A stretch of DNA of 64,000 nucleotides from contig CAIIXF020000001.1 in assembly GCA_903813345.2 (NCBI GenBank), positions 61,087,885-61,151,884 on the forward strand. Direction: 5' to 3'. Positions 13,563 through 58,000 of the stretch are shown here, piece after piece. The stretch is from Owenia fusiformis (lineage: Eukaryota > Annelida > Polychaeta > Sabellida > Oweniidae). The notes below the pieces were generated by a model. It was given only the letters and a program-made list of their open reading frames with translations. It searched no databases and was not told the DNA's origin. The stretch's first letter is position 1, and every line of letters starts with the position of its first letter. A program made the translations under genes and the position numbers.

Positions 13563-16500
13563 TCAGTTAAACTTCTTCTGCTTTTGTTTAGTTCGTTTTA
13601 TATTTTTGGCAGATTGTTCATTTCCTGCAATTGTCCATGTGAATTGTTTCCAGTGGAAGTAACAGAGGAAGAGTAAGAAATGACCACAGGAGTATAGAGA
13701 GATGATGACTGGCCAGAGATCAGGGTAGCGGGCTGGAGGTCTTAGTGTTAGAGATACAATCCAGATGGCAGCACACCCCAACATGGACAACCAGAACTGA
13801 AACAACAAAAACAATGCAGAATCACAGAATGGGTCAAAAACATCCATATTTTTTATTTAGTGACATTTTTTCATAATGAATGAATTTTTAAAATATTTTT
13901 TGACAGAGATGCACAAATCACATTTGCATTGTATGTTTTGATATGAATGTGAAACAAAAAGTATCATGTGCTAGATGTTTGCAAAAAGCAATCCAGTTTT
14001 TATTTTAAGTCATTTTCCATTTCCAAAATATATTTTCCAAAATACAGATCATTCCAAAAAAAAGAAAATTGGACTTACAAATGTTTTGAGAACAATATTA
14101 TTTTTTCCATTTGCTGATGGTTTCTCAAGGAATGTTCCACAGTTGTATACTTGGGTTGTTGCTAGGTGATATAGTAACATTGTTGCTATGGTAGCTAGTA
14201 GTAGACCATCCTTTTGTAGCAGAGGTAGCATGCTGAAGTAAAGAATTCAAAGATTATTATCCACTTGTATACACAAGGATATCAATACTGAACAACAAAT
14301 GAGATATGGGTGTATTTGCAAAGCATGACAGATATCCTCATTTTGATTTTCTATGCTGTAATAAATACTGGGGTCATACTTAAATGCTATAAGTAGCACT
14401 GGGCACTTACAAAATTGTTGAAATGAACACTGGACACTTAAATTATGTTGAAATGAACACTGGACACTTAATTTAATGTTGAAATGAAAAACTGGGCACT
14501 TAATTGAATGTTGAAATGAACAATTACCAAAATGTTGAAATGAACACTGGGCACTTGAAATTCAAATTCAATTGAAATGAATGGTGTAATGAACACTGGT
14601 TAACTTACCTAAATGTTGTAATGTGCAGAAACCAGAGGCCAGTTACAGGATGATAGTGTAGGAGAGTACATACAGGCCTGTAATGAAAAGTACATCACTG
14701 TTTATAGTACATACAGGCCTGTAATGAAAAGTACATCACTGTTTATAGTACATACAGGCCTGTAATGAAATGTACATCACTGTTTATAGTACATACAGGC
14801 CTGTAATGAAATGTACATCACTGTTTATAGTACATACAGGCCTGTAATGAAAAGTACATCACTGTTTATAGTACATACAGGCCTGTAATGAATTGTACAT
14901 CACTGTTTATAGTACATACAGGCCTGTAATGAAAAGTACATCACTGTTTATAGTACATACAGGCCTGTAATGAAAAGTACATCACTGTTTATAGTACATA
15001 CAGGCCTGTAATGAAATGTACATCACTGTTTATAGTACATACAGGCCTGTAATGAAAAGTACATCACTGTTTATAGTACATACAGGCCTGTAATGAAAAG
15101 TACATCACTGTTTATAGTACATACAGGCCTGTAATGAAAAGTACATCACTGTTTATAGTACATACAGGCCTGTAATGAAATGTACATCACTGTTTATAGT
15201 ACATACAGGCCTGTAATGAAAAGTACATCACTGTTTATAGTACATACAGGCCTGTAATGAAATGTACATCACTGTTTATAGTACATACAGGCCTGTAATG
15301 AAAAGTACATCACTGTTTATAGTACATACAGGCCTGTAATGAAATGTACATCACTGTTTATAGTACATACAGGCCTGTAATGAAAAGTACATCACTGTTT
15401 ATAGTACATACAGGCCTGTAATGAAATGTACATCACTGTTTATAGTACATACAGGCCTGTAATGAAAAGTACATCACTGTTTATAGTACATACAGGCCTG
15501 TAATGAAAAGTACATCACTGTTTATAGTACATACAGGTCTGTAATGAAATGTACATCACTGTTTATAGTACATACAGGCCTGTAATGAAATGTACATCAC
15601 TGTTTATAGTACATACAGGCCTGTAATGAAAAGTACATCACTGTTTATAGTACATACAGGCCTGTAATGAAAAGTACATTACCACTTTTAGTACATACAT
15701 ATAACATACACATTATACACACAGGCCTACAATTACATAAATAAACAATGCATATATATCAAACACAAATATAGCATACTGGCAGTGGAAAGTGATGGCT
15801 ATTTATATATATTTTTTTCAATGCAATATGCAAATACGCTGTATTCCATATCAGTGTTTAGTCACTGACTATTCCTGTCGTACAAAAAAATCTGAGTTAA
15901 ATCGATGCACACACATCACTTACAAGTAATTTCAAGCTAACTGTCTACATAGGGTGTTATACTTACAGAGCTGCTATAAGGATGGACTTTTCATGGACTT
16001 GGAATGAAAACAGGAAAAATGTTAGGGACGAGTTCACCTGAAATATATAAAGTACATGTCCTTTAAGTGCTAATCTTATGCTAAAGTTATTAATCAGAGT
16101 AATCTTTAAACACTGTAAAATACATCATCATGTTCACCATCTTTAAAATAGTGTATCACTATATCAGTACAAGCAACCAATAGGGTATCTATGGTAACAG
16201 ATCCTCCTTCAAATTAACAAAACATGGCCAGGTTTCAAATTCTCAAGGAGTATTTCAGTTAAAAGGGGGTTGGGTAAAACACACAGTAAAATATTAAAAT
16301 GAGAACGGCCTCTTACCAACGCATATTTAAATGTACGTGTAGATGGTTTGACCAATAGATGGAGGCAGGAGGGCAGGAGAGCAACCACAGTTGTTCCCAG
16401 GCTGCAACAGTTAACACATGCAGTATAGCAGATAGGATGATGAAAAATTTATTTTAATAATTCCAAGTAAAATTGGTTATTGATTGTTGCCTTTTTAATA

Positions 16501-19500: not shown

Positions 19501-22500
19501 CTGGAGGTCATTGTTCGTTCCATTCATGTACCTGGAAAAATCATGATACATACACATAAAATAACATGTGCAGTTTTTGTAAAAATCCATGGGCTTTCTA
19601 GAGTTTCTCTCATAAATCTGGATATTACAAACAATAACTATCGAACTATCAGTGCTAGACCTAAGTCATTGTAAGTAGTCTACCATATCCTTTGAAAGGA
19701 CCAACAGATTTCCCAAACATACGTAACCTTATGCGAAGTGATAGAACCTTACCGCATCAATGTCAAATCACTTTAGATAGGGTAATATACAATAATTAAA
19801 ATATAAGGAAGTGTTACCATTGAGAAACTGGTAGATTGTATGTTATCTCCATCCAATGTCTCTGTGCCTCATAGTCACCATACATGGGAGCCTTTCCTGC
19901 ACCTGCAAAACAAGTGACATTGCTTACAATAATGTACAAATGATGTACATGTACATCTATGGTACATTTATGTGTGACTGCGGCTTTGTAAATATATTTT
20001 ATGTCATATCATTTATGGTACAGTACAAATGATGTACATGTACATCTATGGTACATTTATGTGTGACTGCCGCTTTGTATATATATTTTATGTCATATCA
20101 TTTATGGTACAGTACAAATGATGTACATGTACATCTATGGTACATTTATGTGTGACTGCGGCTTTGTAAATATATTTTATGTCATATCATTTATGGTACA
20201 GTACAAATGATGTACATGTACATCTATGGTACATTTATGTGTGACTTCCGCTTTGTATATATATTTTATGTCATATCATTTATGGTACAGTACAAATGAT
20301 GTACATGTACATCTATGGTACATTTATGTGTGACTGCCGCTTTGTATATATATTTTATGTCATATCATTTATGGTACAGTACAAATGATGTACATGTACA
20401 TCTATGGTACATTTATGTGTGACTGCAGCTATGTATATATATTTTATGTCAAATCAAACGGGAACTTCACTTTCATAACCTGGTGAATATACAGCTAATA
20501 CACAGTCAGCACCATCTATCTAATATCTCACATAATAGAATTGTTTAATAACTGAATAATGAAGATTGATAGTGCTCACTGCGAGCAGGGACATATAAAA
20601 CCACAGCCAGCCACAGACGTCAAGTAAGTTGCTGGCGAAAGCTGGAGCATAGATTATAAAGAGGACTGGAAACAAGATGGCAATCTATTTCAAATCTGCC
20701 AACTCATGTTGGCCTATTTATCACTATTGACTCAGTTGTTCATCTAGTTTTACTTACCTTAGATGCTTAGTAATCTATTTAGTACATGTATAATATTGTT
20801 TCCAAATTTATTGTCATTTGCGATAATTAGAACTAAAAGTACTTTGAACAGGTCAGCTGCCATTTGCTTGGCCCAATCGTACCAGTCCACAAAAACAGTG
20901 AAATCATATTAAAAATACCAATTAAACTTTAAAATTGAGGCAGATGCGATACAAAGAGACTCTTTTAATACAGATACTGTAAAACGGGTATTGTTAGCGA
21001 GGGGTGATTCGCTATAGTTTCGCTAAAAATTCAATTTGCTAAAATAAACCGGGGTTAAAATAAACCGGGCGCTAAAATTTGCAAATTTGAAAAAGGTAAA
21101 TATTTTTAAATCGTATGTTTCTTTCAATATCTGAAGGATAAATAGCCATCCATCCAGCTTGGACCAATACCATGTGCGTTAGAAGTTTTACATTTTGATA
21201 ATTCCTCTGTCATGTCCGTTATTCGTTCTCCTGCCATAAATGATAAAATTTCTAATGCATTTCGCTAATTCGATTTTTTAAAGATTAATCTTCATTTCGC
21301 TAAAATTTCCCGCGCTAAAACCCCCTAAATCGAAAAATCGCTAAAATTTCCTGGTGTCAAAATTACCCGTTTTACAGTATACAGGTTACAGTCACCAAGA
21401 TGAGCTAATTTCAGGCGAGATTCAGGAAATAAAAAGGTAGGTCATTCTTGTTTCCAGTCCTCTTAAATAATCTATGCTCCGGCTTTCGCCAGAAACTTAC
21501 TTGACGTCCGTGCAGCCAGCACCATCTATCTAATATCTAATATAATAGAATGAATTCAGTCTAATATTGAATAATGAAGATTGATAGTGGTCACTTACTT
21601 CGGTCCAAAGCCTTCTCTATATTCCGGCTTTGAGGAGGAAGATTGAGCTGCCTTAGTATTATAAATATTGTAAATCATTGTGTCACACGCACAGTAAATA
21701 TGGCATAATAATATGAAATATACCTTTATGTATAGATTTGAAGAACATCAGCTCACATCCCCGTCTGAATCTATTGTTATATTTGATTTCTTTAAGCGAG
21801 AATAATTTCAAATGTTATTCACGTCCAGAACCGGAAGCCATTTTTAGCTACAGCGAGAAAATTTCACCATGTGTCAAACTCCGAAATGAAATTTTGAAAT
21901 ACAGTTGGGGACATAAATAAATGACAGGTGGATTTGCTGAAGTGAGGATTTCCCATGTTAAAAATAAGAGAATTTACAAGAGGCCATACATCAGTGGATG
22001 AGATTATACAAAATGTAAAATATAAAAATTTTAAGGGATATGTATCTAGACAATATTGGAAATTATGGGCTTTCAGACCACCATAATTAGGAAATGGTGA
22101 TCGAAAATCGACCTGTCATTTATTTTTGTCCCCAACTGTATCTAAATCCAGACAAGCAACGCTTCATCCTAAATATGATTAATATTCTTAAAAATATTTA
22201 TAAAATTTATTAAAAATGAGTTCTAGGTGCGTGTAGGTGCGTGTAGGTGCGTGTAGCACAGTACATACGAAATCAATGAAGTTTCGTCTAGCTGTAAGCT
22301 AGAGACTCGAGTAAGTGGTCACTGTGTATAAAACACATGTCTCTGCTCTGAACAAACAGGAGAACATTGAAGAGTGTTTCATCTGAAATTATGCTCATGA
22401 CCTAGATTCAGGCCTGTCAACTTGGGGACACCTAACATGAGTGACTTGCAAATGTTGAACACCTTTCTTCAAATTTTGGACACCTTGGTCCAAATCTGAA

Positions 22501-23074
22501 CATCTTGGCCACAATTTGAGCACCTTGTTTTCAATTTTATTGCATTTAATCAAATTTTGGACACCTCAATTTTTCGCGCTGGCTACGCTCGCGATATCGT
22601 CAACGGGGGGGGGGGGGGGGGGTAGGTACGAAAATTTCCAATTAACATGCGTGACACATACGGGATTCGCGTGACAAATCCGAACAAATTGGCGTTCGGT
22701 TTTTTCCGACGTTCGTATTTTTACCGTATCGTCAACATATTTTGAAAATTTTTCTACAGAAATATTTTTGCGTGACAATGACCAGGTAAAATGCGTATTT
22801 GCGTGACATTTTCTGTCACGCAAAAAAAACTGGCGTGACTTCAAATTCTTCAGCAAATGCGTGACAAATACGCAAATTGCGGGACAGTTGACAGGCCTGT
22901 AGATTATATTGAAAAAATTATTAAAAAAAAGTAAAAAAAGTAAAAACAAAAATTTTTCAAACAAGGTTTTCATATGTTTCACTCACCCGAGTAGGAATTC
23001 AATGAAACACTCCATCGGACGACCACGATAACTGATATCAGAACAAATAAGTATGGCAATAGAGCTCGATCCAT
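13563..23074 (-). CDS. ALG6: ALG6 alpha-1,3-glucosyltransferase
   Basis: Dolichyl-phosphate-glucose: Man9GlcNAc2-PP-dolichol glucosyltransferase, the multi-pass ER-membrane enzyme adding the first glucose to the N-glycan precursor. Fourteen exons: 22987-23074, 19818-19902, 19442-19531, 18976-19064, 18776-18852, 18441-18505, 17397-17579, 17031-17166, 16653-16738, 16317-16401, 15967-16037, 14609-14677, 14079-14232, 13563-13796. All phases join, giving about 503 aa against 507 in human. Diagnostic stretches include [75 protein letters not shown] and FQVHEKSIL. The conserved acidic GDYE after the first membrane segment is present. Exon 5 could end at 18776 (CAG|GTGAAA) or 18767 (AAG|GTGAAT), three residues apart. 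Exon 12 is preceded by 24 decoy acceptors in a minisatellite. The C-terminus is lysine-rich. Confidence 0.96.
14390..14600. repeat. degenerate repeat in ALG6 intron 12
   Basis: Variants of gttgaaatgaacactgggcactta recur about six times at 35-40 bp spacing, ending beside the 5' splice site of ALG6 exon 12. Indels make the copies uneven, so this array is older than its neighbour on the other side of the exon. Confidence 0.7.
14671..15680. repeat. 41-bp minisatellite, 25 copies, carrying ALG6 exon 12 acceptor
   Basis: Tacaggcctgtaatga starts recur at exactly 41-bp steps from 14671 to 15655, i.e. 25 copies, differing mainly at one or two bases (aaaag, aaatg, one acaggtctg). Read on the coding (minus) strand each unit contains cattacag|GCCTGTATGTAC: the 3' splice site plus the first 12 bases of ALG6 exon 12. 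Only the copy at 14677 runs on into the real exon. Use of an upstream copy would meet a TAA in the next copy. Confidence 0.95.
17739..18320. mobile_element. long foldback element in ALG6 intron 6
   Basis: Ends are inverted (ggtatcgatatgga and tccatatcgatacc). Nested inside is a longer imperfect palindrome centred near 18035, for example agacctctcaatatt against aatattgagagacct and gaaccttgttggaaca against tgttccaatgaggttc. No coding remains; a MITE of unknown superfamily. Confidence 0.65.
19936..20455. repeat. 89-bp minisatellite, six copies, near ALG6 exon 2 acceptor
   Basis: acaaatgatgtacatgtac recurs at 19936, 20025, 20114, 20203, 20292 and 20381. The unit also holds tatggtacatttatgtgtgact and a run of atatatttt. 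The array lies in ALG6 intron 1 and stops about 34 bp upstream (in transcript order) of the exon 2 acceptor at 19902; it does not contain that acceptor. Confidence 0.93.
20507..21596. mobile_element. nested repeat complex in ALG6 intron 1
   Basis: Three layers. (1) Outer direct repeats of about 75-85 bp at 20507-20580 and 21514-21596 (cagcaccatctatctaatat ... gaagattgatagtg). (2) Inside them inverted arms at 20617-20677 and 21446-21507 (acgtcaagtaagttgctggc against its complement). (3) Inside those a TA-flanked MITE at 20975-21379 with ends TACTGTAAAACGGGTA and ATTACCCGTTTTACAGTA. The interior repeats tttcgctaaaat motifs. No coding sequence. Confidence 0.7.
22409..22899. mobile_element. 491-bp inverted-repeat element in ALG6 intron 1
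   Basis: Perfect terminal inverted repeats CAGGCCTGTCAAC and GTTGACAGGCCTG, with tagatt directly repeated on both flanks (22403-22408 and 22900-22905). The interior has atttgg/acacc repeats, an 18-G run at 22605-22622 and several gcgtgaca motifs. The open frame across it on the minus strand shows no family resemblance. Superfamily uncertain (hAT-like ends, but six rather than eight matching flank bases). Confidence 0.7.
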
Positions 23075-38100: not shown

Positions 38101-41100
38101 ATATTGTATTTAATGCATGTGTTTTTCACATACTAACAACGCATGATGGGTGACTACCTGCTGCTATATTTATATTGAATAACTGCTGTAACATTTAAAT
38201 GCATGATGAGCAACTAACTCTTGTTACACTTACAGTGTATGATGGGAGACTAACTCCTGTTACATTTACAATGCATGATGGGTGAAAACTAACTCCTGTT
38301 ACATTTACAATGCATGATGGGTGACTAACTCCTATTACATTTACAATGCATGATGGGTGACTAACTCCTGTTACATTTACAATGCATATTACTACATGCA
38401 GCTTGTGTTTCACCCAATATGCCTGCTCGTTGTTCTTTTAAGCCATTATGATGAAGTTGACAGCTGCTTTTGGACACCTTGGAAACTTGCCAACCTTGGC
38501 AAAACAGCTAGAAAACTTCTCGTCTTCCTTACTAAGTTCACTGTGAGTGCTTGTCTCTCCTAACATTATTTCTGCAATTTGTAACATTACTTAAACACTT
38601 TCTAATTCTGCTTCTGCAATTTTAAAAATCATTGAACTTATATTATTTCCACAATGTGTAATGACTTCTGTTTCTAGCATGGTTAGAGTTGACACACTAT
38701 GACACAACGTAAATAACATTGACATATTATTGTAATTACATGCGGACTGGTGAATTGATATTAGCACAGTTGAAATTCATTTAGAAATAAGAAAAAGCAA
38801 TGTTATTGGAGCTTTTCCAAATTGTACACCACTTGAGGAATCAAATACATTTTCGTAAATATTTCATTTAATTCTTGGTCTGATAGAACTTTTCAATTGT
38901 GAGATGTTTCTTAGAATTCATGGAAATCCCCTTGTTGCTGCAAACATAAAATATTCTTTTGTGATGTTTTGTAGATGCCGTCACTGTCTACAGGTCTGAA
39001 AGCTATAGCTGGCTGTGAGTAAGTACAGCTAAAAATGCCTCATGTAACATTTTAAAATAAGTGATTGAATTATTTTTGTCCCACAAGGGGGGTTCATTTG
39101 CTCCCCCTGAACTGATTTGACTGTACTTAAGTCACAGATTGGTTAAGACTTTTAAAAAGCTGTGATTTAGGTGAGTGAGTGAGACTTATGTTCTGTTTTC
39201 TTATTCCAGCTCTGCTTATGATTTCTGGAACCTTGCAGTTGCAGCTGAGGTGGGTAATATACAATTATAGCACAGAGTCAATATAAATACTCAATTGCAA
39301 TTGGTCAATAAGGGTTTAGTAATCATAACTTTTAGCATTTAAAAATCAGGCCCTGAAAACTATAGAAAGTATGTCATAATGATGATCAACATAACTAATA
39401 TAGGTTTGCCGTGTTGGGATATAATTTTAACAATTCACATTAACGGGGGTCAGTAAGATTTTTTATGAAGACTCAGTTTTCAAACTTAGTATTTTGTCCA
39501 GTTTCATCCAAGTTTATATATTCACATTTATTATGAAAATGCTTCTTCAGTTCATGTACAACACAAAATTATTGTAATTCTATAATTTATTGCTTACTAT
39601 TTTGAATACATTTACCCACTTTAAAGTGTCTTCCATTGTTTATTGTAGGATTATCGTAAGATGGTAATAGAAGACTGGCAGTCACATGACCTGGATGCTG
39701 TAATATCACCAGGATTTGGTTGCCCAGCAATACCATTAAAAACCCCTGCCCTCGCGACAAGTAAGTATGAAATCACACCCTCACTCTCATATGATAGTAA
39801 AGTCTGTCTAATCCCAGTGCCAAAAGTGATGGATTAAAAGGTGTTCATACTTTAAGGTTTTTAGCAACAGAGTCTATGACAGATTAAAAGTACTCTTCAA
39901 AATGAGAGGTGCTCAGATTAGAGAGGTTGGCAGATATGCAGGTCTTATTGTACATATGCATGTGTTTCCTGTGTGGATTTGTTTTACCTTTGAACTTAAG
40001 ATTCATCATTGTTATATAGCTGAGAGCCAACTAGAAAATTGATCAATGGCTTTTGCTTGATTAGCATTTGTCTTTACTCTTATCAATGATTGGTGTTGGA
40101 GAAATAAAAATGTCATCAGCAGATATAATAATAATGTTGTTATTTATTTTTAACTATTTAATAAAACCCCTTTCCAGGTGCAGTAAGCTATACCACTATA
40201 TTCAACGTGCTCAATTTCCCCGCTGGCTCACTTCCTGTCACGAAGGTGAATGCAGCGGACACTGCCAACATGAAGGACTACCCAACTATTGATCTTGCTC
40301 ATAAAACAGTGAAGAAGGTATGTGACTCTTATGTAGTATAGAATAAGATCAATGATAGGCCCTTATGGACCAGCTCACATATTCATGTATGATTTATTAA
40401 TTAAGTCATATTGAAAACATATTTAGGCTGGGGACTTTTGTGTACGGATGGGTTGTGCTGCCAACACACCCATGCAAAGCTTTGACAAAGTGCAGTGTTG
40501 CAAGCTAGGGGGGTCTGGGAGCATGCCCTCTGGAAAAAATGTGAAATTTAGACCCTCTCCATTACATTCTGAGCGTATAGAGAACCATATTTATAATCAT
40601 TATTCTACATAACAACTTTATTGTTTGTACTAACATTATTTTATGTATTCCCTAGCATTATTGTATATATTTAAAACATATGTATTTACGACACTATTGT
40701 TTGATTTGCAACATTATTATATGTATTTACAACAATGTTGTGTTTACAACACTTTGTATGTATTCCAGGGCATGGTTGGAGCAGAGGGCCTTTTGTCAAT
40801 GTGCAGTGTATAACTCTTGATTGTATGTATTTACAACATTATTGTATGTATTCCAGGGCATGGTTGGAGCAGAGGGCCTTCCTGTAAATGTGCAGTGTAT
40901 AACTCTTGATTGTATGTATTTACAACATTATTGTATGTATTCCAGGGCATGGTTGGAGCAGAGGGCCTTCCTGTAAATGTGCAGTGTATAACTCTTGATT
41001 GTATGTATTTACAACATTATTGTATGTATTCCAGGGCATGGTTGGAGCAGAGGGCCTTCCTGTCAATGTGCAGTGTATAACTATTGATTGTATGTATTTA

Positions 41101-41682
41101 CAACATTATTGTATGTATTCCAGGGCATGATTGGAGCAGAGGGCCTTCCTGTAAATGTGCAGTATATAACTCTTGATTGTATGTATTTACAACATTATTG
41201 TATGTATTCCAGGGCATGATTGGAGCAGAGGGCCTTCCTGTAAATTTGCAGTATATAACTCTTGATTGTATGTATTTACAACATTATTGTATGTATTCCA
41301 GAGCATGGTTGGAGCAGAGGGCCTTCTTGTAAATGTGCAGTGTATAACTCTTGATTGTATGTATTTACAACATTATTGTAAGTATTCCAGGGCATGGTTG
41401 GAGCAGAGGGCCTTCCTGTAAATGTGCAGTGTATAACTCTTGATTGTATGTATTTACAACATTATTGTATGTATTCCAGGGCATGGTTGGAGCAGAGGGC
41501 CTTCCTGTCAATGTGCAGTGTATAACTCTTGATTGTATGTATTTACAACATTATTGTATGTATTCCAGGGCATGGTTGGAGCAGAGGGCCTTCCTGTCAA
41601 TGTGCAGTGTATAACTCTACCTTGGCATGAGGAACAATGCTTAAGAGTGATGAAGGACCTTGAAACAGCTTTAAAAGCATAA
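26128..41682 (+). CDS. FAAH: fatty-acid amide hydrolase 1
   Basis: Membrane serine hydrolase of the amidase-signature family that cleaves anandamide and other fatty-acid amides. Exons: 26128-26325, 28088-28207, 29245-29301, 30671-30760, 31105-31176, 33775-33836, 34648-34854, 35064-35104, 35320-35444, 36111-36236, 36562-36656, then either 37648-37747 or 38443-38542, then 38975-39018, 39210-39249, 39649-39760, 40178-40317, 41569-41682. Each form is about 580 aa; human is 579. Residues 16-40 form an N-terminal membrane segment. The catalytic triad is intact: Lys149 in [10 protein letters not shown], Ser224 in TPGGSSGGE and Ser248 in [11 protein letters not shown], a constant +7 offset from rat 142/217/241. 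Start ATG gives the membrane anchor directly. Introns host a Crypton, a hAT remnant, hairpins and several minisatellites, including ten copies of the last acceptor. Confidence 0.97.
26345..27575. repeat. dispersed repeat block in FAAH intron 1
   Basis: Starts near ctcacacagtgagtctatggg, runs through a tccgtcc-rich stretch (26375-26435), then a long AT-rich body with ttttgacgtcaaaaa motifs, and ends near aactgtgtgagcacagg, which inverts the start. Similar tccatccgtcc starts occur at 36830 and 46275. A large perfect hairpin (27112-27393) is embedded in it. Superfamily unknown. Confidence 0.45.
27112..27393. repeat. near-perfect 129-bp inverted repeat with 24-nt loop
   Basis: Left arm 27112-27240 and right arm 27265-27393 are reverse complements with about two mismatches (t/c near the outer end, c/a in gttagaaccc against gttagaaacc). 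The loop is 27241-27264. In the FAAH pre-mRNA this would fold into a long double-stranded stem. There is no ORF or terminal signature of a known transposon. Confidence 0.95.
28320..28930. repeat. about 120-bp minisatellite, five copies, FAAH intron 2
   Basis: Repeats of a unit containing acatgttacatggtaagaag, gtggccatcttgcattctgg and ttgtcatcgcgattccagga. Copies differ by 5-10 percent. It starts about 110 bp downstream of the exon 2 donor, after a tttg/ttta microsatellite at 28268-28316. The gccatcttg motifs are YY1-like but serve no visible gene. Confidence 0.85.
29064..29160. mobile_element. pogo/Tigger-like MITE, short copy
   Basis: Begins TAGTAAAACTGTCTAATCTG and ends near ATGCTTCACTGTTTA with internal inverted aatctgaacacc / gttcagatta motifs. 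It is the clearest compact copy of the family, about 97 bp, lying just upstream of FAAH exon 3. Confidence 0.6.
29387..30400 (+). pseudogene. decayed hAT transposase (C-terminal dimerisation domain)
   Basis: Starts with cagtggcgtagctacgtg, a 5' end often seen in hAT elements of the ZMYM-associated group. At 29613-29807 an open frame contains [20 protein letters not shown], the hAT C-terminal dimerisation signature. Both sides of it are broken: the upstream frame ([18 protein letters not shown]) is one frame off, and a one-base change after KRIKSY shifts out of the frame that continues [12 protein letters not shown] subterminal gggcgtacactcg near 30363 may be the 3' end. The catalytic core is missing, so it cannot move itself. 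Situated between FAAH exons 3 and 4. Confidence 0.75.
30904..31087. mobile_element. pogo/Tigger-like MITE copy
   Basis: Starts near acaacctgcctaatctgag and ends at ggtgtttgaacatacatg followed by tttcactgta, in FAAH intron 4 and ending about 17 bp from the exon 5 acceptor. Same family as the copies at 29064 and 45741. Confidence 0.5.
31447..33131 (+). CDS. Crypton-type tyrosine recombinase (DUF3504 family)
   Basis: Transposon gene in FAAH intron 5, same strand as the host. Two exons, 31447-32413 and 32716-33131, with a GTAATT donor and TTCCAG acceptor; the join (aaa g|ct ggt) gives about 460 aa with no stop or frameshift. The start at 31447 has a good context (aacATGg); an upstream in-frame ATG at 31312 would add 45 residues of non-conserved sequence. 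Catalytic residues of a tyrosine recombinase are all visible: Arg in [17 protein letters not shown], HxxR in [10 protein letters not shown], His in MTGHKNIQS, and nucleophile Tyr in ITNYHEL. The N-terminus is Asp/Ser-rich ([12 protein letters not shown]), the C-terminal 80 residues are low complexity. Intact reading frame suggests recent activity. It could also be a domesticated gene; nothing in the window decides this. Confidence 0.88.
33460..33592. repeat. 133-bp foldback element
   Basis: Imperfect inverted arms (atcctatgatttactcgtga against tcactcataaatcataggat) separated by a ctctcgctacgctcgctc loop. Lies about 330 bp downstream of the Crypton stop in FAAH intron 5. Elements with this ctcgctacgctcgct centre are common short foldbacks; not linked to the Crypton by any shared ends. 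Confidence 0.8.
35630..35935. repeat. inverted-repeat insertion with CACGTG motifs, FAAH intron 9
   Basis: A 17-bp perfect inverted pair, attggcccccacgtgat (35683-35699) and atcacgtgggggccaat (35864-35880), flanks a segment with further tgacgtt and cacgtgg motifs. The base composition is less AT-rich than the surrounding intron. Probably a MITE; outer ends not resolved. Confidence 0.5.
36770..37480. repeat. dispersed repeat with ctctgctcaagaag units, FAAH intron 11
   Basis: Starts with catccattcgtccatccatc, then repeats a degenerate about 130-bp unit of the type aaatgg-tttgattcaaattttat-gcctaggga-aaaggagctctgctcaagaag-catcttcaa-atggccacc four to five times. The same opening phrase appears at 26380 and 46275. 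Confidence 0.55.
37648..37747 (+). CDS. FAAH: FAAH exon 12a (alternative)
   Basis: 100-nt exon bounded by gcag| and |gtgagt, entering after codon position 2 and leaving in phase 0. It completes the Leu codon begun in exon 36562-36656 and encodes [19 protein letters not shown] followed by [14 protein letters not shown], residues about 398-431. It shares 11 of 33 residues with the exon at 38443-38542. Confidence 0.9.
38135..38395. repeat. about 36-bp minisatellite between the two alternative FAAH exons
   Basis: Unit close to atgcatgatgggtgactaac + tcctgttacatttaca, five to six copies, the last three nearly identical. It ends about 48 bp before the acceptor of exon 38443-38542. Confidence 0.85.
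38443..38542 (+). CDS. FAAH: FAAH exon 12b (alternative)
   Basis: 100-nt exon, acceptor tgttcttttaag| and donor |gtgagt, same length and phases as exon 12a. It encodes [19 protein letters not shown] followed by [14 protein letters not shown]. The VD-C and K-LL-FL pattern is closer than exon 12a to what I recall of vertebrate FAAH. Joining both exons would break the reading frame, as would skipping both, so one or the other is expected per transcript. Confidence 0.88.
39794..39952. mobile_element. pogo/Tigger-like MITE copy
   Basis: From tagtaaagtctgtctaatcc to aggtcttattgta, with inner gaggtgctcagattagagag. Divergent copy of the same family, 34 bp after the donor of FAAH exon 39649-39760. 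Confidence 0.5.
40769..41627. repeat. 89-bp array, ten copies of the FAAH last-exon acceptor
   Basis: The string ttccag|GGCATGGTTGGAGCAG (with small variants) starts at 40769, 40857, 40946, 41035, 41124, 41213, 41302, 41391, 41480 and 41569: period 89 bp (88 for the first, which carries a frame-shifting deletion). Each unit holds the acceptor, about 52 nt of the exon and a 3' part with gtatgtatttacaacatt. Only the copy at 41569 continues into the real exon end. A transcript using an earlier copy meets a TAA in the next one. Confidence 0.95.
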
Positions 41683-44610
41683 ACATTCCAGACACATCAG
41701 ATACGCCATATGCACAGTATTTGACATTTATGATATATACACCATACACTCATATATAAAATGATATGATTCAAAATGTTTTAAAATGAGTAAATGGGAA
41801 ATTGCAATATGTGTGTTTATTAGCAGTGCTAGATAACAATTACAATGTATATAATGAGGGGAATGATATTTCTTCAAGACTGTATTGGACCAATAAAAAA
41901 CATAACATTGCAGTAGACTTCATAACAGTAAACCCTATTTAATTGGAGTATCTAATAGTACCTTACAAAAAGTGTCCAACTTTGGAGGTGTTCTCTGTAA
42001 TTTTCCACTTCTTTCCATCATTTTTCACTTCCTTTCATAATTTTCCTTTTCAATATTTTTCATTTCTTTCCATTATTCTTCACTTCCATAATTTTTTAAA
42101 TCTTTCCACATTTTCCACTTCTTTTTACAGAGATGGAAGACCAATCCATTCAATGGTGCTGTTTTATTTAAACCTCATGTTAATGTTTCATGTTATTTTA
42201 CAATAATTATAAAAAGTTAGAAAACATAAATTATATGTTATGTATAGTGTACTAAAATGTATATTCTTATCTAGTTCTGTGAGGTTTACATGTAAAAATG
42301 TAAAAATTATTGTTACAACGATTGTTCAAATGAGTAGATCCCGCAATATAAAAAAATTGTTTTTGTGTTATGTAATTCATGTGTTTGATTGATAAAAGGC
42401 TTTGCTGTGGACTATGTTTTTGTATAAGTGCACATAGAAGAACACAGGGCTCCTCCAAGGAGGGATTTCAGGCTCTTTCGTCAATTGCTCATCAAAATAT
42501 GTCAGTAATCAAAATACAATACAATAACATAGGACCCAGTATGTGTTTCATATGAAGATGTCAGGTTACAGCTCTGTACAATCCTCTACACAATTTTGAA
42601 GTTATATTTAAATATTTTTATATTCAAGTTGTATTTGTATATTAAGAACATATAATTTACTATTTACTTGATATATTAGTTAGGATTTTTACTCAATTGG
42701 ATTAATGCACAATATTGTTTTTTGATTTTATAAATCAATTTTACTTGATAAAATATATTTCTATAAATGAATATTTTCAATTTTGTTATATTTTGTTCTT
42801 AGTGTCAAATATATTTGTGAAAGGGAGAGTGTACAAGGAGACAGTTGTAGAAAGCATCATTTTAGGGAGCATGTGAATTTCATTTTTGTTATGCACTTTA
42901 TTTTAAACTTTATTTTTATATCTTTATTGATTTCCCTGCATGATATTTAGAAATCCGTTTTTAAATCCAAAAAACTAATGGATGTTGTGAGAATGTTAAC
43001 AGTTGGGGAAAACAAAATTAGATATTGATGTCACTTAAAAATTAACACTTCACTTACAAAAATCCACATTTTCCCACCTCTAATGAATTAACCCTTGCTC
43101 TTCCATAATTGTTGACAAAGAAGGCTGTTACAACTTTGGAATCTTATTGAAGTCTCATTTAATGGAGATTTGCATTAGTGACAATTAAGGATTTATATTT
43201 TGTTTTATTTGATGTATTTGAAATTCCGAATGACTTTTTAAGGTTTCTGAAAAATGTTCTTTAAAAGTAATTTTCTCTTTTAAGGATCACAATTTTAAGG
43301 TGCAAATCACATCTCACCAAGATCATCAAATTGTGCACTAATAGAGTTATAATCCAAATGTAAATAGGTGATAAATCAAAGCATTAAGTATCTTTTGTCA
43401 GCTTCTCCATATAAAGGAATGTAATATTACCCCAACCAAAACTACAACTGCCAACTAAACAAAGTTCGGACACTCATAACTTTTTTGTTACATAATATTC
43501 TTATTTGAAGTTATATACACTGATTAGAAAATTCCTAAAGATAAAACTGTTGAAATATCAGCCTTTAATAATAAAAACTCTTAGTTTTATAATAATTAGT
43601 TCAGGACTTATGTGACAACCCTCATATTTATGCGTTTATATTGCAAGTTCTCTACTGGATTCTTCCCAGACCATTACAGTTTTTATCTCGACTTATTAAT
43701 GGGTTAAACATGTAAAAGCTTGCATTCACCTTTAAGATAATATTACCTGTTTTGTACTTTCTTTTTGTGTAACAAAATGGGAATAGCACTTAAGGCCAGT
43801 GTTCTTAATTCCATCCATGTACAGTAAAATTATTAGAGCTTTGTTTTCAGAATTCCAGGTGTTATCTGTGCAATCTCAGATTACTAAAATAGGATTGCAC
43901 TACTAACTTAATAGGATTATTGAAATGTTTGGAACTACAGAAATTAATAGGGAAAACCTCTGGATCAATAGAAAATAATAGGTGATTTGTCAGAAAATCA
44001 AAAATTTGGCCAAAAATCAAGGTATTCGACCTAAGAACTCCCCATGAATTGGACCTAAGATTGTCAAAATTACAAAGTGATATTCTGTTGAGCATATACA
44101 AACAAGAGGTAGACTGGTTTGTTTACATTTGTTTTATGAGATGAACATGAAATTGTTTGTAAGAATAAGAATCGAGTGAAGCTGATCAATTCAGATTACA
44201 AGACATTCGGATGTACCTTTATATTTCCATTATTCAACTTGTTTATCCCACTGTGATTTATTACACAAAAACACTTCAGTGTTGCTTTTTGATCAGACCT
44301 TTGTATGTCTAACTTCTGGGCTTTTGAGTACAACGTGTTGTTTACTTTGCTTTCAGCTACTGTGAAAGAAGTTGACTTAGCTTTTAGTCATTCATTGATT
44401 TGGTAGAATGGCAATATACGTTAAGCCTGCCTGTTCCTAGGTAACAATCCATTGTTAGTGACTGTCAATAACTTAATCTTATTTTAGCGTTTCTCTATAT
44501 CCGGGAATCTAAGGAGAAAGTCTATGCTGCAGGATTAGTGTTATACATTAAATGGTGTAGGATTAATGATTATCTACCCTGGAGAGACACATTAGTAAGA
44601 CACAGACACA
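41683..44610. other. intergenic, FAAH 3' flank to Cys-rich gene
   Basis: Contains an AATAAA at 41892-41897 that could end the FAAH transcript, a SINE-body fragment (42425-42480) and otherwise AT-rich sequence. I see no coding exon; the 79-codon frame at 43862-44101 has no family features. Confidence 0.5.
42425..42480 (+). repeat. SINE-body fragment
   Basis: The phrase aagtgcacatagaagaacac followed by agggctcctccaaggaggga also occurs, inverted, at 51930-51985 next to a tRNA-like head. This copy lacks the head. Confidence 0.55.
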
Positions 44611-46767
44611 ATGTGTCGTTGGGGTTGTACAACAACTAATACAGTAAGCAACCAACTTGTGTATTTTTTTATACAGTGTTTATGTATATTTTATGTGCTC
44701 AAGATTTGAAGAAAATGGGAAATTTGGCATTTCAAGATTTTTATGCTTTGCTTTGTATTTGAAAGGGTGGAGCAATAAAATTATGTTGAAAATAATTTGA
44801 ATTATCTTACAATATTATCCAAACAAGTTCTTGACTTTCGACATACTATTCGACGTACCAATGGCCACCAATGATATATTTTTCTATTGATTATCTTTGT
44901 ATATTTATATGGTGTCTTAACATATGTATTTTACTTAAAATGTAATATTTTAGTTAACTTGTGACACAGAAATAAACTATTATTAAACTAAACTTTTATT
45001 TGGTCATTTTAAAATATATGAACTATTGAAAGCTAAGAGGTGTGCAATCAAATACATGAACTGTCAGTATTTTTCTAATACAGGATGTCACAGTTATAAC
45101 AAAATTCTCAATTTGATGAAACCTTAGCATGGCCTTTTCTGATGCATAATCAGTGATTTGAAATCAAATCTTTTTTTCATAAAGTGGAGTATATGAATCA
45201 GAATGTGACCTTTTTGAATATAAGTCTCATTGACATTTTGAAATATGTTTTGTCATATGATCCTTTGATCGGTTTGAACTATACATAAAGCCATTTGAAT
45301 TTGATATACATTTGTATGTTTCATCCCCATGGCAACGTAAAACATGAATTCATCTTCTATTCAATGTTGAAGGGATAATGACAACATTGTTGAAAATAGC
45401 TCCCATGGTACATCGCAATATACCAGTCTCTGTCATATAAATTGTCAGGCGGCAATTAGTCGAGAGAAACCCTGCATAATAACCATTTTATCCAATATTA
45501 AATGAGCCTTTCTATGTTATGCAATTCAGATTTCTCTTCAAGAAAACAACACTTCAATATTTATTTCTACGTGTGGGAAAGTGAACTTTGTTTCCATAAT
45601 TAATGAAATAATAATTTGTTTTACATAAATCCATATTTGATATGTATTAAAGGGGCTAGTATTCTACATAACAATGACCTGAATTTCTACCCAGATTAGA
45701 TGATGAGATTCTTTGAAGCATTCAAACTTAATTTAATGAACAGTGAAACCTGCATATCCAAACACCTCAATAATTCTACACAATGCTTTCTTCACTCCCA
45801 TTTTAATATTCCAAAGACATCCATATTAAAAAAACATGAAATTTGAGCATCACCTAATTGAAATACTTTTGGCCCATCCCAGAGGCATTTGGATTAGACA
45901 GGTCTTTATATGTTTATGTGGTTTCAGACATACATGTGCAAGTGGTGTCTTAATATTGTATGTGGTTTCAGAGGTACATGTGCAAGTGGTGTCTTAATAT
46001 TGTATGTGGTTTCAGAGGTACATGTGCAAGTGGTGTCTTAATATTGTATGTGGTTTCAGACATACATGTGCAAGTGGTGTGGAACCCGCTACTGCAGAGA
46101 GTGCCTGAGGGGAGACTTTGTGGGACACATGCAGGAATCAACCAAATGTAGAATGTGCAATCAGGTAAAAGTCTCGAACATAATTTACATATAAACTTGT
46201 GTACATCTGTATACAATGCAAATTTTCAAGAGAAAGCCAGTGTTAAATACAGCTAAGTGTCCCAACATATTTGGTTCTGTCCATCCGTCTATCCATTCTT
46301 CTGCCTGATAATCGCTTCAGAGAAACAGCTTCTTTATATCCTTCAAGACTTTACATGGAGGAAAACATATCATTTTTATTATTATTAAATGTTGTTTATG
46401 ATTGGAAAACAATTGTGGTAAGCAATATAACAATATGGAGTAATTTGCCTTACCATACCTAGTCCTTTAAAGAGAAAACATGACCCCAATGCTGTTTTGT
46501 TTTAATATTAGTTAATACTTCCTATGATACCTCACAATATGTGTTTCATGACAGTATAATAAACATTAATTTATTTTTCAGAGACGCTGCCAGGGTGCGC
46601 GTGTTGAGTATGTGGTGCCCCCTAAACCATCCCCCGAGGAAAAGGGTAAAGGGCGAGGAAGAAGTGCAAGTCCGTCAAAGTCCGCAAGATCTGTCTCCAA
46701 AAGTGCCAAGAAAACTACTGGAAAGAAAAGTGCAACAAAAAAGAAAGGAAAGAAGAAAAAGAAATAA
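44611..46767 (+). CDS. small cysteine-rich protein with lysine-rich tail
   Basis: Three exons, 44611-44643, 46060-46164 and 46582-46767, all joining in phase 0, about 107 aa. Nine cysteines fall at 2, 6, 15, 18, 23, 26, 41, 44 and 49 (motifs MCRWGC, CKWCGTRYCREC, KCRMCNQRRC), a spacing suited to two zinc sites. After RVEYVVPPKP comes a Ser/Lys tail ending KKKGKKKKK, suggesting a nucleic-acid-binding or nuclear protein. I do not recognise a named family. The first exon is the least certain: it is chosen because ATG in caca-ATG-t opens a frame that adds two cysteines and ends at a GTAAGC donor in the right phase. The second exon follows three decoy copies of its own acceptor. Confidence 0.75.
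45741..45910. mobile_element. pogo/Tigger-like MITE copy
   Basis: CAGTGAAACCTGCATATCC at the start and ggattagacaggtcttta at the end; it abuts the splice-site minisatellite that begins at about 45912. Confidence 0.5.
45912..46082. repeat. 44-bp array, four copies of an acceptor and exon start
   Basis: Exon-like starts (gtttcag|ACATACATGTGCAAG or gtttcag|AGGTACATGTGCAAG) at 45928, 45972, 46016 and 46060, period 44 bp. Only the last continues as exon 2 of the Cys-rich gene. Each of the first three units also carries gtatgt just before the next ggtttcag. Confidence 0.93.
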
Positions 46768-48648: not shown

Positions 48649-49074
48649 GACAACATATTTTAAACATTGAGACATTGGAACAACGTAAAAAACAAACAAA
48701 TGAAACAATGAGACAGAACTATTACACTGAGCCCATAGAAAGTATTGCTATACGTCAAAATTGATTAAATTGTCAAAAAGTTGATGTTCAGAGATATTGA
48801 CCTTTCATGACATATGTATTATTTACTTTAAAATATTTGGTTATACCAATTAAATTATGACAACAAAATAAATAATAAACAATATATAATAGTTGATGTG
48901 TAATTTTTGCACTTGAATGGTACTTCTATTCATTATTTATTATCCAATGAGATTCACTGAATCTGGCCACATGATGACTGATTGTGTACGTTTGCCTGCC
49001 AAATAGGAACCCAAACAGGATTGCTGTCATTTAGATCAGTGATGGTCCTTCCATTGACGATTTCTGCACCAAAT

Positions 49075-52000: not shown

Positions 52001-55000
52001 CACCACAGCCTTTTGTACGAGTTGCGGACCACTCAGTAAAACACCCTGAAGTACTTCACGCAAACAAGCAAATTTAGTCTTGCCTGAACTGGGGATAGAA
52101 TCCGGGACCTATTGCGTAAGAGGTACCTGTTCTACCGCTGAGCTACACGGGTGGACATATTATAAATAATTTTTATGTTATATACTTATTTGATAATCAT
52201 GCCTCCTTTTTATCTGGTTCATTACATCAATTTTAATGCCTATGGCAACCAATTTTTGCACTTAGCAGTAGCCTTGGAAAACTGGTTGCCTATTGGGCTG
52301 AATGCCCTTCAATGTTAAATTGTTGCAATTATGTTTTTAAACTAATGCCTCAGTCACATTTGATCTACAGCAAATGTATGGCGGCAACAGCTTCCCAAAA
52401 TCGAGAGAAATGTGCAGCATAAAATATAGGGATGGGGGATATAGATTATACCGTTTTTGTGTAGCTGGGCTACCATAGAGCAAATGTAACTGCGGCTTTA
52501 GAATTCAAATTCAAGGTGTAATAAGGGTATTTTACAGATTTTTCAAGTTTGAGATTCACATTGACTCATGACATTATAAACATCCATGCTCTTGTACAAA
52601 TCTGGTTGCTCATAAAATGCTTCATGTCATTTACAGTAATATATGAACTTACCACAGGAACTGCTGCAAGGTTTCGCACCATTGTCTGAAGCAATTCTGA
52701 CTGAGTATATGGAAAATCCCGCATTGTTGATCTAATAAACTTTTCCATATACTCATTACACATATCTCCTTCCCGACAGCGTATTAAACTGAAAAATAAA
52801 AATAATAGCAGAATGAGTTTATATGAGGAGTTGTTAAATAATAGCAGAATGAGTTCATATGAGGAGTTGTGTTAAATAATAGCAGAATGAGTTCATATGA
52901 GGAGTTGTTTTAAATAATGGCAGAATGAGTTCATATGAGGAGTTGTTTTAAATAATAGCAGAATGAGTTCATATGAGGAGTTGTTTTAAATAATAGCAGA
53001 ATGAGTTCATATGAGGAGTTATTTTAAATAATAGCAGAATGAGTTCATATGAGGAGTTGTTTTAAATAATAGCAGAATGAGTTCATATGAGGAGTTGTTT
53101 TAAATAATAGCAGAATGAGTTCATATGAGGAGTTGTTTTAAATAATAGCAGAATGAGTTCATATGAGGAGTTATTTTAAATAATAGCAGAATGAGTTCAT
53201 ATGAGGAGTTGTTTTAAATAATAGCAGAATGAGTTCATATGAGGAGTTACTTTAAATAAAATGTACAAATTACATTTCAACAAACAAATATTTAAACCAA
53301 TTTGAATTTCAAGAACGGCTAATTTGACCCTGGTTGAATATTGTACAGAATTCGAAAGTGACACAATCAATATTCTATGACAAAGAAACAATATGTATAT
53401 ATAAAAAATTAATTGATTTAAACATAATTTACCTTTTAATCCAAGTATCCAGATTTGTATCTCCCCTTTCAGTTCTTGCCTTGTCACACTGTCGAATGAC
53501 GCATGCCAGATAATGGGACTTGATGGCCATCACATCATTGGTGTCAGCAGCCTTCATACTCTTTTCACACAAAAGGTCTAGCACTTTAGCAATCTTATAA
53601 GCCTCATCAAGTAGTACAGGGGTTTGCTTCAGGTATCTAGATATCTAATAAAAAGATGGGGAGAGAAATTTACTAATCTTTTATTCTTCATTAATCTACA
53701 TGTACGTCTATTTGCTTCTAGATTAGGATTTCATTTGAACAAACAACTACATTTTGTACAAGTTAACTGAAACCTTATATGATGAAACCATAATTGGATA
53801 TAATGAGAAAAGAAAAAGGCACTTTCAAAGCCATTGAATATCTAATCGCACAACTCTCCCTCTGACTACGAGAGATGACAATCTTCAAATGGAGCTCTTT
53901 AGGTCTTTGATCAGCCATTAGAGCAAGCTAAGTGGATTAATAAACTAATTCAGAGAGAATTGCTTACATGTACAGGATGCAGATTGGTGAATAGCATCAT
54001 CTTGTGAAGCAAAGGAGCTAAATGCGGTGGCAGGCGAGGCTCTTTATCAAGACCTGAACATCAGAAAAATGCAAATATAGATTATTATTCATTTTCAATA
54101 AACATATACTTAATACAATGTGAAATCTTCTCTAAGACAAATCAGAGAACAGTTTATGATATCACAATATAGAGACTATTTTCAGGAGTAATGTGCAATA
54201 TTCTCTTTATCCATGATATATTCAAAGTTCCAAACCTATCTAAATAAAAACCATAATATAGACAAGGCATTACCATGACAAAATGTCACCTGGTTGCAAT
54301 TTGTGAGGGTGACATACCTTGTATTCTAATGTTTTCAAAACTATTCCAAACCCTTTTTATAAACAACCACATACACAAGGCAATAAATTCAGATGACCTA
54401 CCTTGTATTTTAATGTATGGCTCAAGATAATCAATAGGGAAATAGTTGTTGATTGTTGCTACAACATGATGTTGACCTGTTAAATACAAATGTACATGAA
54501 ATTAATGATTATTAACTAAAATTTGGTATGGGTTATTCAAGAGACATCTAGAACAATGCATTGTGTTTATAATAACAACAGGAAGCCAATGATGAGCACA
54601 ATAGAATGATATAATTCTTCTACAAATGTTTTGACCTTGGATTGAATGCTATTATATAAGACATGTACTTAGGAACCTGTCTTAGATTCAACATTCTGTA
54701 TATGTTTGCCTTCCAATGACCTTGATTCAAACATTGTACATTTGACTATAATTTACTTCTATTCCATTCTATGTGAACAGACAGTACATAATTTCCTACC
54801 AGTAAAACCAGCCATCTGGGCAGCTGTTCTTCCAACTGAGTTCTTTGTTTTTGTGTCAGCTCCAGCTATCAATAGGGCCTTCACTACATCAGCATTGCCT
54901 GAAATATAGCAATCGACAATAGGACCTTCACTACATCAGCATTGCCTGAAATATAGCAATCAACATTAAGGCCTTCACTACATCAGCATTGCCTGAAATA

Positions 55001-58000
55001 TAGCAATCGACAATAGGACCTTCACTACATCAGCATTGCCTGAAATATAGCAATCAACATTAAGGCCTTCACTACACCAGCATTGCCTGAAATATAGCAA
55101 TCAACAATAGGGCCTTCACTACACCAGCATTGCCTGAAATATAGCAATCAACAATAGGGCCTTCACTACATCAGCATTGCCTGAAATATAGCAATCAACA
55201 ATAGGGCCTTCACTACACCAGCATTGCCTGAAATATAGCAATCAACAATAGGGCCTTCACTACACCAGCATTGCCTGAAATATAGCAATCAACATTAAGG
55301 CCTTCACTACATCAGCATTGCCTGAAATATAGCAATCAACAATAAGGCCTTCACTACATCAGCATTGCCTGAAATATAGCAATCGACAATAGGGCCTTCA
55401 CTACACCAGCATTGCCTGAAATATAGCAATCAACAATAGGGCCTTCACTACACCAGCATTGCCTGAAATATAGCAATCAACATTAAGGCCTTCACTACAT
55501 CAGCATTGCCTAAAATATAGCAATCAACAATAAGGCCTTCACTACATCAGCATTGCCTGAAATATAGCAATCAACAATAGGGCCTTCACTACACCAGCAT
55601 TGCCTGAAATATAGCAATCAACAATAGGGCCTTCACTACATCAGCATTGCCTGAAATATAGCAATCAACAATAGGGCCTTCACTACATCAGCATTGCCTG
55701 AAATATAGCAATCAACAATAGGGCCTTCACTACACCAGCATTGCCTGAAATATAGCAATCAACAATAGGGCCTTCACTACATCAGCATTGCCTGAAATAT
55801 AGCAATCAACAATAGGGCCTTCACTACACGAGCATTGCCTGAAATATAGCAATCAACAATAGGGCCTTCACTACATCAGCATTGCCTGAAATATAGCAAT
55901 CAACAATAGGGCCTTCACTACATCAGCATTGCCTGAAATATAGCAATCAACAATAGGGCCTTCACTACATCAGCATTGCCTGAAATATAGCAATCAACAA
56001 TAGGGCCTTCACTACACCAGCATTGCCTGAAATATAGCAATCAACAATAGGGCCTTCACTACACCAGCATTGCCTGAAATATAGCAATCAACAATAGGGC
56101 CTGCACTACATCAGCATTGCCTGAAATATAGCAATCAACAATAGGGCCTTCACTACACCAGCATTGCCTGAAATATAGCAATCAACAATAGGGCCTGCAC
56201 TACATCAGCATTGCCTGAAATATAGCAATCAACAATAGGGCCTTCACTACATCAGCATTGCCTGAAATATAGCAATCAACAATAGGGCCTTCACTACATC
56301 AGCTTTGCCTGAAATATAGCAATCAACAATAGGGCCTTCACTACACCAGCATTGCCTGAAATATAGCAATCAACAATAGGGCCTTCACTACATCAGCATT
56401 GCCTGAAATATAGCAATCAACAATAGGGCCTTCACTACATCAGCATTGCCTGAAATATAGCAATCAACAATAGGACCTTCACTACATCAGCATTGCCTAA
56501 AATATAGCAATCAACAATAAGGCCTTCACTACACCAGATTTGCCTGAAATATAGCAATCAACAATAGGGCCTTCACTACATCAGCATTGCCTGAAATATA
56601 GCAATCAACAATAGGACCTTCACTACATCAGCATTGCCTAAAATATAGCAATCAACATTAAGGCCTTCACTACACCAGATTTGCCTGAAATATAGCAATC
56701 AACAATAGGGCCTTCACTACATCAGCATTGCCTGAAATATAGCAATCAACAATAAGGCCTTCACTACACCAGCATTGCCTGAAATATAGCAATCAACAAT
56801 AGGGCCTTCACTACACCAGCATTGCCTGAAATATAGCAATCAACAATAAGGCCTTCACTACACCAGCATTGCCTGAAATATAGCAATCAACAATAGGGCC
56901 TTCACTACACCAGATTTGCCTGAAATATAGCAATCAACAATAGGGCCTTCACTACATCAGCATTGCCTGAAATATAGCAATCAACAATAGGGCCTTCACT
57001 ACACCAGATTTGCCTGAAATATAGCAATCAACAATAGGGCCTTCACTACATCAGCATTGCCTGAAATATAGCAATCAACAATAGGGCCTTCACTACACCA
57101 GATTTGCCTGAAATATAGCAATCAACAATAGGGCCTTCACTACATCAGCATTGCCTGAAATATAGCAATCAACAATAGGGCCTTCACTACACCAGATTTG
57201 CCTGAAATATAGCAATCAACAATAGGGCCTTCACTACATCAGCATTGCCTGAAATATAGCAATCAACAATAGGGCCTTCCCTACACCAACTTTGCCTGAA
57301 ATATAGCAATCAACAATAGGGCCTTCACTACACCAACTTTGCCTGAAATATAGCAATCAACAATAGGGCCTTCACTACATCAGCATTTCAAATATCATAA
57401 AACATGTCTAATCTGAATGCCTCTGGGACAAGCAGATCAACACATTTCAGGGTTTTGTAACATGAAAGTCAATGAGACATAACAAATTTAGGACAGAAAA
57501 AAGTGAAACATGTTTGAATTAAAGAGGTGTTTAGACATGATATGATTCTTTATTTCCTCCAATTTGGAGAGCAAATTAATACAAATTAATTAAATAACAA
57601 TATGTACATTAAATACAATATATGGCGAATTGAGTAAAGTAAGGTGACATTTGCTTACGATGTGAATTCCTAAACATAGCGTTGATCTGATTGGCACAAA
57701 AGTTTATAAATTCTTGTCACTTCGCAAAATCGTAATTTTGTAAAACATTTGTGCGACTACCCAATAAACATTCTACTAAGACATCATCATCAGAGTTTAG
57801 GATATTAATTGAGTCTTCAACAGGTAAAAGGTTAACAATCTTCAAAAAATGTATCTCTTGTTGCACTTAAAGATGAGAATTCTAAAATGAAGTGTTTGAC
57901 AATGTCGTTTGTTGTTTTGGTACAGGCTAGGCAGAATACTGTTCTTCTTCAGTAGAAAGTACAATAAGATATAATAATTGGGCATATTCCCATAATCTGG

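Follow-up and report, generated by a model that had tools for sequence, protein, structure and literature searches.

The stretch of Owenia fusiformis DNA analysed here, a window of 64,000 nucleotides from contig CAIIXF020000001.1 of assembly GCA_903813345.2 (positions 61,087,885 to 61,151,884, forward strand), contains four genes, i.e. ALG6, FAAH, a gene for a Cys-rich protein and an ankyrin gene that we take to be ANKMY2, in which a minisatellite straddles a 3′ splice site (acceptor), the repeat unit comprising, in all four and in this order, the end of the intron, the AG and the start of the next exon. Arrays of this type also straddle acceptors and donors in a sample of 301 exons from elsewhere in the genome, and are therefore neither local nor restricted to acceptors. 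They are probably junction-straddling tandem duplications of the type named "mirages" in amphioxus genes (PMC3087553), tolerated because the splice site that is used belongs to the copy adjoining the exon body. The sample, which is small but independent, supports a preference of arrays with long units for splice junctions.

Acceptor arrays in the window

The window arrays were located with Tandem Repeats Finder (TRF), the DNA was read directly and the acceptor copies were then counted, giving 25, 10, 4 and 53 copies, including the real one, in ALG6, FAAH, the Cys-rich gene and ANKMY2, respectively (Table 1). The initial annotation, which had described four 3′-splice-site arrays with the true exon as the last copy after 24, 9, 3 and about 52 decoys, is borne out both as to their places and as to the counts by acceptor copy. 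The exon body is present only behind the last copy in each array, the first bases of the real exons being 14677 (− strand, ALG6), 41569 (+, FAAH), 46060 (+, Cys-rich) and 54898 (−, ANKMY2). The unit is divided into 28 nt of intron end and 13 nt of exon start in ALG6, 39 and 50 nt in FAAH, 23 and 21 nt in the Cys-rich gene, and 18 and 29 nt in ANKMY2. All of the junction arrays within the window are at acceptors.

The ALG6 peptide joined across the last copy aligns through the junction to a solved homologue, Alg6, and the equivalent FAAH peptide gives a strong PDB match, to FAAH-1, with no gap at the junction, its match to the Pfam Amidase family being slightly under the cut-off (24.3 vs 27 bits). 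For the Cys-rich protein no family was matched in Pfam and an upstream exon was looked for and not found; its real exon is predicted from an open frame and splice-site scores. The name ANKMY2 is presumed, coming from the initial annotation, with Pfam supporting the ankyrin identity of the gene.

Scored with matrices trained on sampled exons from the O. fusiformis genome itself, the decoy acceptors have mean scores of 11.3 vs 11.8 for the real site in FAAH, 10.9 vs 10.1 in ANKMY2, 10.5 vs 11.1 in ALG6 and 9.6 vs 9.5 in the Cys-rich gene; the mean over the decoys differs from the real score by no more than 1.5 bits in 18 of 21 arrays at acceptors and in 6 of 7 at donors, including those described below. 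Decoys are 87–98% identical to the real copy in ANKMY2 and 88–100% in ALG6, and the outermost copy is the most divergent one in the ALG6, FAAH (54% by gapless alignment) and Cys-rich (86%) arrays; such comparisons indicate concerted turnover among the copies. Near its 5′ end the ANKMY2 array has a run of alternating copy types (ACACACAC).

That the arrays are an artefact of assembly is highly improbable, given that scattered substitutions separate the copies (20 distinct types among the 53 in ANKMY2) and that the pattern recurs at many other loci, even though searches with sequence from or next to three of the four arrays hit only their own locus and reveal no second haplotype (the Cys-rich array was not searched).

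It has been considered that the decoys might be selected regulators, which titrate splicing factors or slow splicing and so tune expression. The retention of strong sites in most decoys would be in keeping with such a role, as would the finding that the intron part of the 52 ANKMY2 decoys diverges by 1.0%, compared with 6.5% for the exon part. However, the opposite is observed for the ALG6 decoys (3.6% intron, 0.6% exon) and for those of a kinesin gene on contig C2 (11.4% intron, 1.7% exon; see below), and the arrays are spread over unrelated genes and are found at donors too; a regulatory role seems very unlikely.

The unit lengths of the window arrays (41, 89, 44 and 47 bp) are all 2 modulo 3 and use of the penultimate decoy leads to a stop codon after 59–132 nt in all four. 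Both regularities had been noted in the initial annotation and both hold for the window, but neither is a general rule. For acceptor arrays outside the window, the unit lengths fall into classes 0, 1 and 2 modulo 3 as 6/5/7 (n = 18, counting the array of the C2 kinesin gene and L088, which was rejected, see below), or 6/5/11 with the window arrays added (n = 22, again with L088), and for donor arrays as 3/5/2 (n = 10). Of 21 acceptor arrays, 17 run into a stop within 151 nt if the penultimate decoy is used; the four exceptions (L092, L127, L167 and L170) have a unit divisible by three that stays open and in frame throughout, with the identity of the last copy being uncertain for L127.

Junction arrays elsewhere in the genome

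The assembly searched has 498,259,871 bases in 525 contigs, of which C1–C12 are 31.9–62.2 Mb each and 477.5 Mb together; this number of large contigs does not fit the 18–20 chromosomes of amphioxus. It was searched with four Pfam families (myosin, kinesin, HSP70 and CCT), only the best candidates being taken, so that coverage of each family is incomplete, and 301 exons (81 myosin, 126 kinesin, 37 HSP70 and 57 CCT) were obtained with 400–430 bp on each side, alongside 36 kb of random stretches; arrays with units of at least 10 bp were counted. Rows removed before counting comprised, for myosin, 11 of 92 (a cluster of tandem exons on C9); for kinesin, 18 of 144 (the C2 array, the one real exon of which thus does not count among the 301); for HSP70, 2 of 39 (single matches over the full length); and for CCT, 3 of 60 (two long C3 matches and one at the end of C222). 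The possibility that the CCT loci on C222 and C8 are haplotigs was rejected, no match of at least 150 bp being present among the fetched stretches.

Among these exons, an array lies across the acceptor end in 17 cases and across the donor end in 10. One of the former, L088, was rejected as a real site (score −0.8), and three of the latter, L030, L166 and L174, have no decoy donor; after refinement, clear decoy sites are present in 16 acceptor and 7 donor arrays, with unit lengths spanning 28–259 bp. L009 was kept with its weak acceptor (3.5), and three further loci were kept as straddling by the array limits, i.e. L127 (exact last copy uncertain owing to an indel, measured exon part 0), L007 (first copy uncertain, the exon part exceeding the unit) and L172 (measured exon part 1 nt). 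Across the four gene families sampled, junction arrays hence affect about one in twelve exons, and 18 of 79 gene clusters bear a junction array with a unit of at least 25 bp. By family, arrays with units of at least 40 bp are distributed over acceptors, donors and neither as 2/0/1 in myosin, 8/3/5 in kinesin and 3/3/2 in CCT genes, with none in HSP70 genes.

A kinesin gene on C2 (L094–L096 being in another, on C6) is an extreme case in which 18 copies of a 159-bp unit, comprising ~20–30 nt of intron and ~130 nt of exon, lie at the start of one exon (C2:23266359-23269174, −; L135, L063). The decoys that were read have an in-frame stop shortly after KNKP. At variant sites 6 of 8 changes in the decoys are synonymous, vs 22% expected, as if the copies were drawn from a selected exon or were themselves used. 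When the variant-site test was applied to 11 other arrays, five had no variant site; variants look neutral in ANKMY2 (1/10 sites synonymous), FAAH (1/6), L170 (0/3) and L005 (2/6), and variants lean towards synonymous, as in the C2 kinesin array, in L069 (3/3) and L049 (2/3).

Junction arrays may cluster in some genes: three are present, at acceptors and donors, in the kinesin gene with L094–L096 (C6:40.7 Mb), and likewise three in the CCT gene with L170–L172 (C11:0.13-0.14 Mb).

Placement of arrays relative to chance

A rival account is that the genome is rich in randomly placed minisatellites, a few of which land on splice sites, and that four of these were happened upon. Tandem arrays do make up 12.5% of the window and 7.4% of the sampled non-exon bases. 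Since intronic coverage near exons necessarily includes the straddling arrays themselves, a seed-placement simulation was added, in which each array was collapsed to one unit and the seeds were placed randomly, with only arrays that would still be visible being allowed (20,000 simulations). For units of 10–24 bp the observed numbers are as expected by chance (1 acceptor and 2 donors vs 1.3 and 1.3; 3 of 57 arrays straddling vs 2.7), as the random account would have it. For units of 25–39 bp, 3 acceptors and 2 donors were observed vs 0.8 and 0.8. By contrast, 19 of 27 arrays with units of at least 40 bp straddle a junction vs 8.1 expected, with 13 acceptors and 6 donors compared with 4.0 and 4.0, and none of the 20,000 simulations reaches 13 acceptors. 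Among those long-unit arrays with at least 2.5 copies (n = 17), 10 are over an acceptor, 5 over a donor and 2 over neither, i.e. 15 of 17 straddle a junction; with fewer copies (n = 10) the numbers are 3, 1 and 6. Chance alone is thus an unlikely explanation. The excess of long-unit arrays on junctions is clear at acceptors and perhaps present at donors.

The proposal in the initial annotation that arrays favour acceptors consequently stands in so far as there is a long-unit excess at acceptors in the 301 exons. The stronger idea of targeting to acceptors only fails, given the ten straddled donor ends, seven of them with clear decoy donors. Taken by itself, the acceptor to donor ratio does not reach significance (17:10, p = 0.25; 16:7, p = 0.09); on adding the C2 kinesin array it becomes 17:7 (p = 0.06), and on adding the four window arrays 21:7 (p = 0.013), but the window was selected for its acceptors. 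Bootstrapping over the 79 gene clusters, for units of at least 40 bp, gives a probability of 0.03 that acceptors do not exceed donors. A preference for acceptors over donors is therefore best regarded as suggestive.

Several points weigh against mirage-type arrays with a preference for junctions. The coverage profile around junctions has no peak at acceptors or donors, an absence in keeping with chance placement; instead, the intronic level of ~8% drops to 5.6% at acceptors, the corresponding values for donors are ~6% and 3.6%, and there is a rise to ~10% at 350–380 bp beyond donors. At donors alone the excess is not significant, 20% of simulations reaching 6 (P = 0.20). The placement excess depends on as few as 8 long-unit arrays in the sampled flanks that straddle no junction, and there are 5 such long-unit arrays in the 36 kb of random stretches vs 4 in the 64 kb window; the background is therefore poorly known, and the higher density in the random stretches would shrink the excess. 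The observed 13 and 6 include L009, with its weak acceptor, and L166, with no decoy donor, and the 37 HSP70 exons have no long-unit junction array. On average the decoys of L092, L127, L130 and L172 fall below the real site in strength, and a matrix score of only 1.9 is obtained for the C2 kinesin acceptor. Both correct splicing and the copy numbers in O. fusiformis are, further, predictions from the assembly.

Unit geometry and possible origins

The intron part of the unit is 15–48 nt in 18 of 21 acceptor arrays, vs 10.0 expected with random cut points, and in 14 of 17 without the window arrays, vs 7.5 expected, the range having been picked post hoc in both cases; among units of at least 76 bp (n = 12), 2 extend more than 48 nt into the intron vs 6.3 expected (P ~0.01, the limit again picked post hoc). 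The last copy is preceded by exon-derived DNA and therefore works only if a branch point, a pyrimidine tract and an AG are included in the unit itself. The lower limit of the intron part fits selection of this type; the upper limit is unexplained by it, and is the one hint towards a mechanism linked to the branch point.

Such a mechanism could be a splicing- or RNA-linked duplication aimed at the 3′ ends of introns, e.g. through an R-loop at the junction, or through copying of a splicing intermediate with a stop near the branch point. The acceptor excess over random placement and the confined intron parts are consistent with it. Against this, donors are straddled too, which is not given by a lariat-stop model, the difference between acceptors and donors is not significant, the interval was picked post hoc, and selection for a working last copy gives the same lower limit. 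We consider such targeting to intron ends improbable.

In the preferred explanation, i.e. mirage-type duplication with tolerance, an array would be born by local tandem duplication of a segment straddling a splice junction, and its copies would then multiply by unequal exchange and be homogenised as in any minisatellite. The copy adjoining the exon body is the last one at an acceptor and the first one at a donor; the remaining copies would become intron and act as decoys. Tolerance is likely to reflect exon definition, the gene being assumed functional because the spliceosome pairs the sites flanking the real exon and most mis-splicing is degraded: most mis-spliced RNA would shift frame or meet a stop and be removed by nonsense-mediated decay. 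The preference for junctions may arise from a bias in birth at exon–intron junctions or from better survival there, with a filter probably retaining those units that carry a whole 3′ splice site. More tentatively, and on balance doubtfully, junctions, acceptors above all, may be birth hotspots of long-unit minisatellites, through transcription- or splicing-coupled copying from near the branch point into the exon, possibly in thousands of genes.

Relation to known systems

The O. fusiformis arrays are known in kind and new in lineage and scale. They have the features of amphioxus mirages, with a unit that comprises intron, exon and a splice signal, an authentic exon provided by the terminal copy on the exon side, and both junction types affected. 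The amphioxus report describes mirages at both acceptor and donor junctions, with 3 and 6 copies in two haplotypes of BflGb6, regular splicing reported as undisturbed and turnover among copies (PMC3087553); it cites Adh as an earlier case (Canestro 2002, Adh3), including somatic instability. Straddling units, many of them with splice signals, an authentic copy at the exon, involvement of both junction types and turnover are thus common to the two. By contrast, the present arrays are from another animal group (an annelid, not a cephalochordate), have up to 53 copies and were counted over 301 exons, with long units concentrated on junctions, whereas the amphioxus cases are from few genes; for amphioxus, splicing and instability are reported, whereas the annelid arrays are known from assembled sequence. 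Tandem repeats over splice sites are also described for lancelet PGBD5, with mention of troponin C (PMC3902484); unlike the O. fusiformis set, that case concerns a single gene, with copies described as imperfect.

Internal tandem repeats at exon–intron boundaries are stated to alter splicing in human duplicated genes (PMC2812944). The position of the repeats is the common feature; the human cases differ in that they involve recent segmental-duplication paralogues, in which novel introns arise through the repeats. Intron gain through duplicated AG/GT proto-splice sites (Rogers, as cited in PMC3087553) likewise has duplicated splice signals in common with the arrays studied here, but no new intron was seen in O. 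fusiformis, the decoys being absorbed into the old intron. No work on junction minisatellites was recognised beyond those cited, among titles and the starts of abstracts, and novelty outside lancelets is not claimed.

So far mirages have been regarded as curiosities of a handful of lancelet genes. If about one in twelve exons is affected in an unrelated animal, they are a common condition of genomes and offer a natural system in which to study how the spliceosome chooses among dozens of equally strong copies. The long-unit excess on junctions suggests mutation by a process that depends on gene structure. The arrays could, in addition, supply material for new introns and isoforms, and they lead to errors in gene models.

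Other features of the window and sampled loci

The initial annotation had listed three further arrays ending near acceptors. This is sustained for two, in ALG6 and ANKMY2 introns (32 and 12 bp from predicted acceptors). The end of a third (42000-42124) is no more than 6 bp from an AG (42129-42130), at which no exon is established. The ALG6 array at 14397-14562 does not belong with these, as it lies beyond a donor.

Table 1. Features of the window; coordinates are those of the 64,000-nucleotide stretch
Feature	Position	Strand	Details
ALG6 acceptor array	14665..15699	−	TRF 41 bp x25.2; 25 copies, 24 decoy acceptors
FAAH acceptor array	40739..41618	+	TRF 89 bp x9.9; 10 copies, 9 decoys
Cys-rich gene acceptor array	45902..46080	+	TRF 44 bp x4.0; 4 copies, 3 decoys
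ANKMY2 acceptor array	54870..57387	−	TRF 47 bp x53.6; 53 copies, 52 decoys
Real ALG6 exon, fed by last copy	14609..14677	−	Joined peptide matches Pfam Alg6_Alg8 and Alg6 (6snh)
FAAH penultimate exon, upstream of array	40178..40317	+	
FAAH last coding exon, from last copy to stop codon	41569..41682	+	Alignment to FAAH-1 (4hbp)
Predicted real exon, Cys-rich gene	46060..46164	+	Open frame; acceptor score 9.5, donor score 8.7
Real ANKMY2 exon	54800..54898	−	With upstream exon joined, matches Pfam ankyrin families
ALG6 intron array	14397..14562	−	30 bp x5.5; ~47 bp beyond donor (14609) of exon 14609-14677; not straddling
ALG6 intron array	19934..20456	−	89 bp x5.9; ends 32 bp from predicted acceptor 19902; not straddling
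ANKMY2 intron array	52800..53259	−	38 bp x12.2; ends 12 bp from predicted acceptor 52788; not straddling

The myosin cluster left out of the sample (C9:37986009-37994334, −) comprises 12 listed matches to one myosin-head exon (profile positions ~18–84) across 8 kb and, from its sequence, looks like a large alternative-exon cluster beside a muscle-myosin-like gene. L008 (1515-1672) contains, in reverse orientation, ~160 bp of the sequence repeated at the L009 myosin exon, the two being ~5 kb apart and 82–84% alike.

Candidate mobile elements are also present in the window. Two open reading frames (ORFs; 370 and 208 aa) in a FAAH intron (31309-33131, +) resemble, by eye, a tyrosine-recombinase element, and a short ORF at 29613-29807 (+) has a motif reminiscent of the end of a hAT transposase.

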